From a virus, in IMG/VR virus record IMGVR_UViG_3300037042_001212, positions 1 through 64,000 of that record: a DNA stretch of 64,000 nt; one strand, given 5' to 3'. Below, piece after piece: positions 7,921 through 10,272 of this stretch. The notes under the pieces were generated by a model. The model was not told where the DNA came from. It did no database searches and was given only the letters and a program-made list of their open reading frames with translations. The translations under genes and the position numbers were made by a program. The first letter of the stretch is position 1, and the number at the start of each line of letters is the position of its first letter.

Positions 7921-8943
7921 ATGAAAATTCCTGAATCAGAGCATACCATTCAAAGCCTGATTGACAAGCACCATGAGGGCCAGGCCGAGGTGCCGCGCCC
8001 ACACCTTGGTGCCAGCACGCTTGGCCACCCCTGCGACCGCTGGCTGTGGCTGTCGTTCCGCTGGGCGGTGCAGCCGAGCTTTCCTGGCCGAATCCTGCGC
8101 CTGTTTCGCCGGGGCCGTGAGGAAGAAGTTAACATTATCAACGACCTGCGTGCCATTGGGATGGACGTTCGGAAAGTGTCGAGCCAGCATCGGGTGGACT
8201 TTGGGAGCCATGTGTCGGGAAGCCTCGATGCCATCATTGATTCTGGCGTGCCGGAAGCGCCGAAGGCAAAACACATTGCCGAGTTCAAAACTGCGTCAAG
8301 AAAGGCATTTGATGATCTGGTCAAGCAGGGCGTAGAGAAGTCCAAGCCAGAGCACTTTATTCAGATGCAGGTTTACATGGCTGGCACAAAGATCGACCGC
8401 GCCCTGTATCTGACCGTCTGTAAAGACGATGACCGCATCCACACCGAGCGAGTCAAATACGATAAGGCTGTTGCAACCAAGGCCATTGAGCGAGGCAAAC
8501 GCATTGCTCTGGCTGACCGGATGCCGGAACCGATCAGTTCAGACCCGTCCTGGTATCAGTGCAAATTCTGCGATGCTCACGACTTCTGCCACGAATCCAA
8601 GATCACCAAGCATGTGAACTGCCGCACCTGCGCCCATGCTACGGCATTGCAGGATTCGACATGGCATTGCGCCAGATGGGATGCTGTAATTCCTCTAGAT
8701 ACCCAAAAAGAAGGCTGTGAATCTCACGTTCTGCACCCTGATCTGGTGCCGTGGAAACGGAAAGACGGGCCGGATGAATGGACAGCAGTTTATGAAATCA
8801 ATGGGGTCGATCTGGCCAACGGCGAGGGTGACGCGAATGTTTACACCAGTAAAGAGTTACTGGCCAACCCTGCTGCCTGCGCTGGTGGAGATCCGTTTGT
8901 CGCTGAGTTGAGGCAGGACTTTGATGGGAGGGTGGTGGGGTGA
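7921..8943 (+). CDS. PD-(D/E)XK exonuclease, Cas4/AddB-like with Fe-S cysteines
   Basis: This is a 340-residue nuclease of the PDDEXK_1/Cas4-like group. Visible motifs are the first cluster Cys in STLGHPCDRWLW (C38), catalytic Asp in VSGSLDAII (D103), the E-x-K pair in IAEFKT (E121, K123), and a Q-x3-Y box in HFIQMQVYM. A C-terminal group WYQCKFCDAHDFC (about 212-224) would complete a four-cysteine iron-sulphur site. More Cys/His follow (NCRTCAH, WHCARW), perhaps an extra zinc ribbon. It probably resects double-strand ends for the Sak4/DUF669 annealing system. The end overlaps the methyltransferase start by 4 bases (GTGA). Confidence 0.85.
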   Translation: MKIPESEHTIQSLIDKHHEGQAEVPRPHLGASTLGHPCDRWLWLSFRWAVQPSFPGRILRLFRRGREEEVNIINDLRAIGMDVRKVSSQHRVDFGSHVSGSLDAIIDSGVPEAPKAKHIAEFKTASRKAFDDLVKQGVEKSKPEHFIQMQVYMAGTKIDRALYLTVCKDDDRIHTERVKYDKAVATKAIERGKRIALADRMPEPISSDPSWYQCKFCDAHDFCHESKITKHVNCRTCAHATALQDSTWHCARWDAVIPLDTQKEGCESHVLHPDLVPWKRKDGPDEWTAVYEINGVDLANGEGDANVYTSKELLANPAACAGGDPFVAELRQDFDGRVVG

Positions 8944-9734
8944 TAGAACAAGGGGAATTAAATGAGTTGGCTCTTTTCGCAGGCGCTGGTGGAGGAATTC
9001 TCGGCGGCAAGCTGCTTGGATGGAAAACCGTCTGCGCTGTTGAGTGGGAACCCTATCCAGCAAGCGTATTGTGCGCCCGACAAAATGACGGACTTCTCTC
9101 GCCTTTCCCGATTTGGGATGACGTTCAAACCTTTGACGGCAGACCGTGGCGAGGCATTGTTGATGTCGTATCTGGCGGGTTTCCATGCCAAGACATCTCC
9201 GCAGCAGGAAAAGGAGCAGGAATCACCGGCAGCAGGTCAGGACTCTGGTCTGAAATGGCAAGGATTATTGGCGAAGTACAACCACGCTACGCGTTCGTGG
9301 AAAACAGCCCAGTCCTCACTTCTCGCGGACTTGGAACAGTCCTTGGAGATTTGGCCGCGTTGGGGTTCGATGCGAAATGGGGTGTCGTATCAGCAGCAGA
9401 CGTTGGTGCGCCGCACCTCAGAGAAAGAATCTGGATTATGGCCTACCCCCGATACACGGGGATTTGTAAACGAAGGCAGCATAGCGATGTTGGCGAAAAA
9501 GGCTGGCAGTCATGCGGAATATGTGGCGATGGGTTATCGGGCAGCTGCGAAGAAGAAAGAAAAATATTGGCCGACACCTTCTGCAAGCGACAACAGAGAT
9601 CGGGGCAATCTTTCAACTCCAGCCATTCAGCGCAGATTATCCAAAGGGAAGCAATTGATGCTTTCAATGGTTGTGTCGGAGGTCAGTGGGCAACTGAACC
9701 CAACGTGGGTGGAAAAGTTGATGGGATGGCCTGA
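8940..9734 (+). CDS. C5-cytosine DNA methyltransferase, truncated before motif X
   Basis: The 264-residue enzyme starts at a GTG overlapping the upstream stop. Motif I ALFAGAGGGILGG is at 11-23, the catalytic motif IV GGFPCQDIS at 79-87, motif VI ENS at 121-123, and motif VIII RERIWIMAYP at 161-170. The frame ends TEPNVGGKVDGMA then TGA, exactly where other enzymes of this group continue with a motif IX/X segment. That segment is found 430 bases downstream in a different frame (10165-10272), beyond an inserted HNH gene. Without motif X the SAM pocket is incomplete, so activity is doubtful unless the missing part is supplied. Nearly the whole gene is overlapped by a second coding frame (8962 onward). 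Likely role when intact: protecting phage DNA from restriction. Confidence 0.88.
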   Translation: MIEQGELNELALFAGAGGGILGGKLLGWKTVCAVEWEPYPASVLCARQNDGLLSPFPIWDDVQTFDGRPWRGIVDVVSGGFPCQDISAAGKGAGITGSRSGLWSEMARIIGEVQPRYAFVENSPVLTSRGLGTVLGDLAALGFDAKWGVVSAADVGAPHLRERIWIMAYPRYTGICKRRQHSDVGEKGWQSCGICGDGLSGSCEEERKILADTFCKRQQRSGQSFNSSHSAQIIQREAIDAFNGCVGGQWATEPNVGGKVDGMA

Positions 9735-10272
9735 TGATTGGACTTCGCTGCAACCCATGAGCCATGTTAAAATGTGCTTTTGGCTTATGGGTTCGCACAA
9801 TGGAACGGAAACCGGAAGAAGCGAAGTTCTGCGAGTGTTGCGGATTGGAAATGCAGCGCAAGAGATTCAACGGGAGATTGGAAGACCTGTCGGTGTTCAT
9901 GAAGCGGCGCTTTTGCTCGCTGAGTTGTGCGAACACGCGAACCGACCTGACGAAGCACGGGTATTCATGGCGTGCGCGAAAGCACTTGAAGAAGAATTGC
10001 GAGGCGTGCAGCTACGCGAGGGCACTACAGGCGCACCACATCGACCAAGACAAAACCAACAACGAGCCGGAGAACATCCAGACTCTGTGCAAGCACTGTC
10101 ACGATTTCTGGCACACCACGGCCAAACGTATTGGCAGGACGGTCGCTGGGAGGATGCCACGCTTCGAGTGGCTCATGGGGTGGCCGCTAGGGTGGACAGA
10201 CTTAAATCCATTGGAAACGGACAAGTTCCAGCAGTGGCTGCAACAGCATGGAGAATCTTGAATGCTCCGTGA
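8962..10272 (+). CDS. Protein overlapping the methyltransferase in another frame
   Basis: The frame starts 22 bases into the methyltransferase with its own ribosome site (AGGGGAATTAA then ATG) and is open for 436 codons. The first 265 or so residues resemble a protein I recall beside phage C5 methyltransferases: MSWLFSQALVEEFSAASC, KMTDFSRLSRFGMTF, ATRSWKTAQSSLL, WPRWGSMRNGVS, ESGLWPTPDTRG and LMGWPDDWTSL. Residues after about 266 (base 9760 on) look like a shadow of the HNH gene. The last 35 (RVAHGVAARVDRLKSIGN and on) are the displaced methyltransferase motif-X segment. The open frame is therefore a chimera of three origins. Function is unknown; dual coding with the methyltransferase is the notable point. 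The true product may end differently in relatives without the insertion. Confidence 0.7.
   Translation: MSWLFSQALVEEFSAASCLDGKPSALLSGNPIQQAYCAPDKMTDFSRLSRFGMTFKPLTADRGEALLMSYLAGFHAKTSPQQEKEQESPAAGQDSGLKWQGLLAKYNHATRSWKTAQSSLLADLEQSLEIWPRWGSMRNGVSYQQQTLVRRTSEKESGLWPTPDTRGFVNEGSIAMLAKKAGSHAEYVAMGYRAAAKKKEKYWPTPSASDNRDRGNLSTPAIQRRLSKGKQLMLSMVVSEVSGQLNPTWVEKLMGWPDDWTSLQPMSHVKMCFWLMGSHNGTETGRSEVLRVLRIGNAAQEIQREIGRPVGVHEAALLLAELCEHANRPDEARVFMACAKALEEELRGVQLREGTTGAPHRPRQNQQRAGEHPDSVQALSRFLAHHGQTYWQDGRWEDATLRVAHGVAARVDRLKSIGNGQVPAVAATAWRILNAP
9800..10261 (+). CDS. HNH homing-type endonuclease fused to tail of the overlapping protein
   Basis: The 153-residue product begins MERKPEEAKFCECCGLEMQR. The start at 9800 is chosen by similarity to phage HNH proteins; the upstream ATG at 9764 is possible and neither has a strong ribosome site. 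Zinc ligands are suggested by C11/C14, C39/C43, NCEAC (67-70) and LCKHC (97-100). The HNH core is QAHHIDQD (H79, H80), N92 and H101/H105. After residue 120 the sequence changes to FEWLMGWPLGWTDLNPLETD, which is the C-terminus expected for the protein that overlaps the methyltransferase. The endonuclease has therefore been inserted into, and fused with, that dual-coding gene. It overlaps the next helicase gene start closely. Confidence 0.83.
   Translation: MERKPEEAKFCECCGLEMQRKRFNGRLEDLSVFMKRRFCSLSCANTRTDLTKHGYSWRARKHLKKNCEACSYARALQAHHIDQDKTNNEPENIQTLCKHCHDFWHTTAKRIGRTVAGRMPRFEWLMGWPLGWTDLNPLETDKFQQWLQQHGES
10165..10272 (+). pseudogene. Displaced motif IX/X segment of the C5 methyltransferase
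   Basis: In the frame of the 8962 reading frame this stretch reads RVAHGVAARVDRLKSIGNGQ, then VPAVAATAWRIL and a stop at 10270-10272. The R-L-x-x-(I/L)-G-N-x-x-V-P pattern is motif X of C5-cytosine methyltransferases, which packs against the SAM site. It is out of frame with the 264-residue methyltransferase and separated from it by the HNH domain. The frame offset between this segment and the overlapping LMGWPLGWTDL tail equals the offset in the main dual-coding region, so both were moved together. Confidence 0.75.

Follow-up and report, generated by a model that had tools for sequence, protein, structure and literature searches.

The genes-in-pieces arrangement nrdA/mobE of Aeromonas phage Aeh1 is an enzyme split by a homing endonuclease gene that is still functional in two pieces, but unlike the locus described here it is not known to have subunit frames nested in each other or a frame that is read through the endonuclease gene. 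In the C5-cytosine methyltransferase (C5 MTase) M.EcoHK31I, the β subunit is also encoded in another reading frame within that of α. This enzyme (motifs I to VIII and X on one chain, motif IX on the other) and M.AquI (motifs I to VIII on one chain, IX and X on the other) are two-polypeptide C5 MTases in which the second chain supplies motif IX (M.EcoHK31I) or the distal recognition region together with motifs IX and X (M.AquI) (PMC3404938). Out-of-frame HNH insertions in phage methylases have also been published already: the ShiLan domain is an HNH gene concealed in an alternative reading frame of a methylase gene whose own frame stays open through it, with neither intron nor intein and with a start of the insert that resembles the 3' flank (PMC11855218).

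The locus that we analyzed lies in a stretch of 64,000 nucleotides (the window) taken from a virus record of 80.5 kb in IMG/VR. As with the ShiLan domain, its HNH gene occupies an alternative frame within a methylase gene, a host frame is open through the HNH gene with no sign of an intron or intein, and the start of the insert resembles the 3' flank (LMGWP copies at 9718 and 10172). However, the through-frame of the ShiLan domain is the methylase's own, whereas the MTase of the window stops at 9734 and the frame running through the HNH gene is that of a partner, here called P2. The host gene of the ShiLan insertion, gp65 (L481:1786-4668), additionally differs in that it looks like an amino-methylase with a DPPY motif rather than a C5 MTase, and in that it has no P2. 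In its distribution of motifs, the window resembles M.AquI with motifs IX and X on the second chain, while P2 loci that are uninterrupted resemble M.EcoHK31I, where motif X belongs to the large chain. Unlike these two enzymes, the window has its putative second chain encoded in the +1 frame across almost the entire first gene, and an HNH gene lies between motifs IX and X. What is new are the nested subunit frames, a through-frame that now belongs to the partner subunit, and a plausible way for the HNH gene to be translated. We read this locus as a nested-frame two-subunit phage C5 MTase in which an HNH insertion has probably moved motif X from α to β, and we put the probability of this reading at about two in three.

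Organization of the locus

The MTase, P2, and HNH reading frames and their associated features are arranged as follows:

8940 to 9734, plus strand: C5 MTase, putative catalytic subunit α, 264 aa, motifs I to VIII (PF00145, 1e-31; phrog_363, 3e-59)
8950 to 8955, plus strand: AAGGGG, Shine-Dalgarno-like, 6 nt upstream of the P2 ATG (from the sequence)
8962 to 10272, plus strand: 436-aa ORF comprising P2, a linker read from the -1 frame of the HNH gene, and MTase motif X (phrog_1008)
9718 to 9750, plus strand: LMGWPDDWTSL, C-terminal motif of P2 (first copy), equivalent of motif IX (homology to the C-terminus of single-chain MTases)
9754 to 9791, plus strand: hairpin CCCATGAGCC...GGCTTATGGG immediately 5' of the HNH start (pairing kept across 13 loci)
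9764 to 10261, plus strand: HNH ORF in the third frame, probable initiation at ATG 9800, followed by an HNH/zinc-finger core until ~10150 and a P2-like tail (phrog_1271, 4e-10)
10165 to 10272, plus strand: MTase motif X segment RVAHGVAARVDRLKSIGNGQVPAVAATAWRILNAP (also given as RVDRLKSIGNGQVP) in the P2 frame ([IL]GNGQVP in 18/18 loci with the P2 frame passing through)
10172 to 10258, plus strand: repeat of the LMGWP motif (LMGWPLGWTDL...QQHGES) in the HNH frame, interpreted as a remnant of the 3' end of uninterrupted P2 (overlap constraint released in P2-through loci)

The MTase ORF opens with a GTG codon that shares bases with the stop codon of the preceding gene, ends with TGA (9732 to 9734), and contains motifs I, IV (PCQ), VI (ENV/ENS), and VIII in the order of PF00145 enzymes. 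Motifs IX and X, which PF00145 enzymes have on the same chain together with the recognition domain, are absent from these 264 aa and are both found in the P2 frame. P2 opens at ATG 8962 in the +1 frame relative to the MTase and matches PHROG 1008 at 1e-22; the P2 (β) part of the 436-aa ORF consists of an N-terminal part, WPTP repeats, and the motif-IX-like LMGWP. The HNH ORF matches PF01844 at 4e-4, slightly below the Pfam cut-off. The two LMGWP copies at 9718 and 10172 are spaced by 454 nt, which is 1 mod 3. The original prediction, made from the sequence of the window, had correctly recognized this duplication and an MTase that stops short of motif X, though the ORF ending at 9734 lacks motif IX as well. 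It had assigned motif X to another frame, but this segment lies in P2's own frame within the single ORF from 8962 to 10272. The fusion of motif X to P2 had been missed, and so had the kinship of P2 with the C-terminal half of C5 MTases, the stop-free -1 frame of the HNH gene, and the recurrence of the arrangement in ~20 loci.

Dual coding of the methyltransferase and P2

The MTase and P2 share coding DNA from 8962 onwards as originally proposed, and this observation is confirmed as real and more than a product of chance. Both frames are kept in >200 viral and bacterial loci, and stops in the P2 frame as well as third-position change are far below what MTase coding alone permits. Among 80 loci chosen by the N-terminal part of the MTase alone, the P2 frame is open across 160 codons in all 80 and the P2 ATG is found at the same base in 77, whereas the third frame is open in none of the same loci (mean of 9.1 stops). 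With synonymous codons permuted at 150 loci, the P2 frame is expected to have 4.6 stops (median) but has none, and the median probability of an open frame is 0.0005 per locus. These P values are not independent of each other, and since they were obtained on open stretches of P2-selected loci, the unbiased figure is the 80/80 open frames. At fourfold codons of conserved MTase residues, third positions agree in 61% of pairs compared to 27% expected from composition alone (81 non-redundant loci). Similarly, third positions of the MTase in the motif X segment of intact genes vary no more than first positions (0.168 versus 0.172).

With P2 or MTase queries, the pair was detected in viral contigs, phage records, and GTDB genomes ranging from Proteobacteria to Verrucomicrobiota and Planctomycetes; no paper on the overlap was found for the literature search terms tried. 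The frame of P2 relative to the MTase is always +1 across 80 genomic loci, with full nesting in 70 of them. In 59 of 72 relatives the MTase starts just 4 nt upstream of the P2 ATG (RTGAATGAG), and a Shine-Dalgarno sequence for P2 is present in 57 of the 72. Given this 4-nt spacing of the two starts, a single ribosome-binding site may serve both.

Several GTDB loci, isolate genomes included, have an intact P2 but an interrupted overlapping MTase frame (L244, L263, L276, L277, L298, and L304), which could reflect decay, sequencing error, or a separate role of P2. At other loci (L150, L129, L045, L151, L317, and L138), the MTase and P2 parts are found in one frame via apparent single-indel swaps. 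In L150, motifs I to VIII are joined to the P2 C-terminus in a protein of 263 aa, and such indel fusions may be sequencing errors.

P2 as the probable second subunit

No relative of P2 was found in Pfam, PDB, or PADLOC; its family, phrog_1008, carries the label DNA methyltransferase. An AlphaFold model of P2 alone is of low confidence (mean pLDDT 56.5). The MTases that are accompanied by P2 align to M.HhaI and PF00145 over motifs I to VIII only, and the M.HhaI-type match of an intact relative ends at motif VIII. Judged by profile and motif comparisons, P2 shares homology in its C-terminal half with the C-terminal half of single-chain phage C5 MTases, which comprises the target-recognition region and motif IX, and also with the second gene of split MTases, e.g., Hammer gp91/gp90. 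ShiLan gp70 is such a single-chain C5 MTase with the P2 C-terminal half in frame between motifs VIII and X (LPTP repeats ... RLAPAFSEWMMGWPAGW), and a canonical MTase profile places the P2-like segment of gp70 at motif IX and the downstream IGNGVVP at motif X. Comparison of P2 with 17 single-chain MTases by hhalign gave a match of 97.2% (E 3.7e-11), and phrog_1008 matches both residues 196-388 of gp70 (2e-61) and Hammer gp90 (6e-73). The predicted structure of a single-chain enzyme (pTM 0.70, with a confident C-terminal part) aligns with M.HhaI over the full length with a probability of 1.00. Direct profile comparison of P2 with the canonical motif IX, using 6 or 40 canonical MTases, was not significant, and the link of P2 to these enzymes therefore runs via the single-chain phage MTases.

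The motifs are distributed differently among relatives of this family. Hammer and Darrell each have two annotated overlapping genes with motifs I to VIII followed by motifs IX and X in the +1 frame. Sorted by motif pattern, 77 relatives of gp70 include 19 single-chain enzymes, 25 in which the +1 frame carries both motifs IX and X, and 27 in which it carries motif IX while motif X is on the MTase. Hammer gp91/gp90 and ShiLan gp70 share the domains of the window enzyme, either split (+1 frame) or as a single chain, but differ in that motif X stays with motif IX, that the overlap is short or absent, and that there is no HNH gene.

Considering this homology to the C-terminal halves of single-chain and split MTases together with the known two-polypeptide C5 MTases, P2 is best read as a β subunit. 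As in those enzymes, the second polypeptide would carry motif IX, judging from the homology of its C-terminal half to the single-chain enzymes, and this same homology displaces the view of P2 as a protein of unknown family. The widespread and mostly unannotated overlapping frame is therefore probably the second subunit of phage C5 MTases, which means that many MTase annotations in phages and prophages would describe half an enzyme.

The existence of single-chain relatives is also compatible with programmed +1 frameshifting from the MTase into the P2 frame after motif VIII, which would generate one chain of motifs I to VIII, recognition region, motif IX, linker, and motif X, and a single such shift would indeed yield the canonical motif order both in the window and in Hammer-type genes. 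We consider this unlikely since P2 starts at a conserved ATG of its own (77/80) behind a Shine-Dalgarno sequence and has a conserved N-terminal half that would be needless in a frameshift product, while a single shift cannot cover both motifs IX and X in uninterrupted genes and the position of the MTase stop varies between relatives.

HNH insertion between motifs IX and X

An HNH gene is found at exactly the site of the window, between motifs IX and X, in ~20 viral relatives, and at least two kinds of HNH gene are involved among the ~20 loci in which the arrangement recurs. The HNH gene of the window has ~60 viral relatives, nearly all of them within C5 MTases, and a wider search that overlaps this first set listed 79 loci, again nearly all in C5 MTases between motifs IX and X. 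These insertions come in two phases. In the first one, the MTase frame passes through the HNH gene, which is the published ShiLan-like arrangement and is seen in 39 relatives but not in the window. In the second one, the P2 frame passes through to motif X (~16 window-like loci as well as L370, L035, L110, L200, and L237). L035, L110, L200, and L237 have a different HNH gene that contains an additional zinc finger. We rejected a single origin for the P2-through phase because the starred branches force at least two changes.

Relatives without an HNH gene are the majority, in line with the original view of an overlapping pair that occurs in intact form. Because these HNH-free relatives are uninterrupted, the alternative that all relatives might share a truncated, HNH-free arrangement does not hold. 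One of them, L007 (also listed as L162), shares 98% identity with the window across the catalytic part yet has no HNH gene and an uninterrupted MTase, and this near-identical allele represents the uninterrupted state. The insertions share one site and are patchily distributed, and the HNH gene may be capable of homing. The original interpretation is supported with regard to the conserved pair, the HNH insertion at a fixed site, and a probable two-piece enzyme. Its proposal of a functional endonuclease fused to the LMGWP tail was not sustained, as a stop codon separates the HNH part from this tail in most relatives and the frame is open only in the window, L088, and L094.

Relatives of the HNH gene are also found out of frame inside an intein of the phage terminase large subunit (L389, L390, L391, L393, L394, L396, and L399). 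The frame of this terminase intein (..GGN/CFVAGT .. FFAEGFLVHN/C.., with slashes at the intein borders) is stop-free across the HNH gene.

A stop-free through-frame and the probable transfer of motif X

The -1 frame of the HNH gene (the "antiframe") is devoid of stops in 19/19 loci of the first set, where 2.5 to 7.7 would be expected. In every MTase-borne HNH copy, the frame leading to motif X contains 0 stops compared to 2 to 10 expected, whereas 5 HNH relatives outside such hosts (L380, L392, L395, L398, and L161) have stops at the expected number. The amino acid sequence of the through-frame is barely more conserved than that of the unused frame (0.655 versus 0.635) and thus behaves as a linker that needs only to be translatable. 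In the 18 P2-through loci, motif X is conserved at 0.76 and under purifying selection, and its third-position change rises from 0.168 in intact genes to 0.402. Identity of the LMGWP frame at the second copy falls from 0.785 in intact genes to 0.555 in these loci, as expected if motif X has moved to the P2 chain and this copy has become free of overlap.

The conservation of motif X together with that of the N-terminal MTase argues that both pieces still work together. It could be objected that phage MTases are often dispensable and that the MTase frame is broken in several genomic P2 loci, in which case the split MTase would be dead or dying and the open frame from P2 to motif X coincidental. 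This seems very unlikely to us given that the catalytic part in the 18 P2-through loci has an identity of 0.77 versus 0.72 in intact genes with the same pattern across codon positions, that motif X is conserved, and that the through-frame has no stops. Least probable of all is an unrecognized self-splicing element that excises ~454 nt, because even though exact excision between the LMGWP copies would restore both frames (454 = 1 mod 3) with no stretch lost and there is a hairpin at the 5' end, no Rfam model of a group I or group II intron matches here (nor for ShiLan; PMC11855218), the -1 frame is kept stop-free in every MTase-borne copy although this would be pointless after excision, and constraint on the second LMGWP copy is lost.

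We return to the reading of a nested two-subunit MTase with motif X handed from α to β. In uninterrupted relatives, the frame-0 chain (α) would have motifs I to VIII and X, while the +1-frame chain (β, i.e., P2), which begins 4 nt after α in most loci, would have the target-recognition region and motif IX. A homing-type HNH gene would then have entered between the DNA for motif IX and the DNA for motif X. The phase of insertion seen in the window would cut motif X off α and add it to β via the -1 frame of the HNH gene, which would be held stop-free so that translation gets to motif X. The resulting enzyme would be composed of α (motifs I to VIII, 264 aa) and β (recognition region, motif IX, linker, and motif X, 436 aa), two chains that presumably bind each other and methylate DNA with a motif split as in M.AquI. 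With motif X naturally switching chains, subunit complementation is directly testable at such loci.

These results suggest that selfish genes can enter working enzymes via an unused reading frame. We lean, if only slightly, towards a more general model of frame-transparent homing genes, in which HNH genes would settle by means of a stop-free -1 frame and the host frame would be translated across them as a linker. In nested MTases, such genes would hand a motif between subunits, repeatedly and with unrelated HNH genes, and translation of the HNH gene would be coupled to that of the overlapping subunit, the final codons of which would serve as the ribosome-binding site of the HNH gene. The same model would extend to terminase inteins.

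Translation of the HNH gene

No ribosome-binding site was found for the ShiLan HNH gene, and leaderless initiation has been suggested (Arsenault et al. 2025, PMC11855218). In the MTase-through loci, the P2 stop codon abuts the HNH start and the last codons of P2 form a purine-rich site (e.g., AGGAAGAAATAA directly followed by ATG), which suggests that the HNH gene may be translated by coupling or reinitiation at these loci. A P2 stop and Shine-Dalgarno sequence at the HNH start in this methylase-through class would offer a possible answer to the question of how hidden HNH genes come to be translated, which had been left open. In the window class, the HNH start is instead preceded by a conserved hairpin (9754 to 9791), which stands between it and the first LMGWP copy. 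Across 13 loci, the pairs of this hairpin are preserved in 90.8% of cells compared to 19% to 53% when slid, with modest covariation, and a similar hairpin with another loop is found in L106/L342, L343, L347, and L348.
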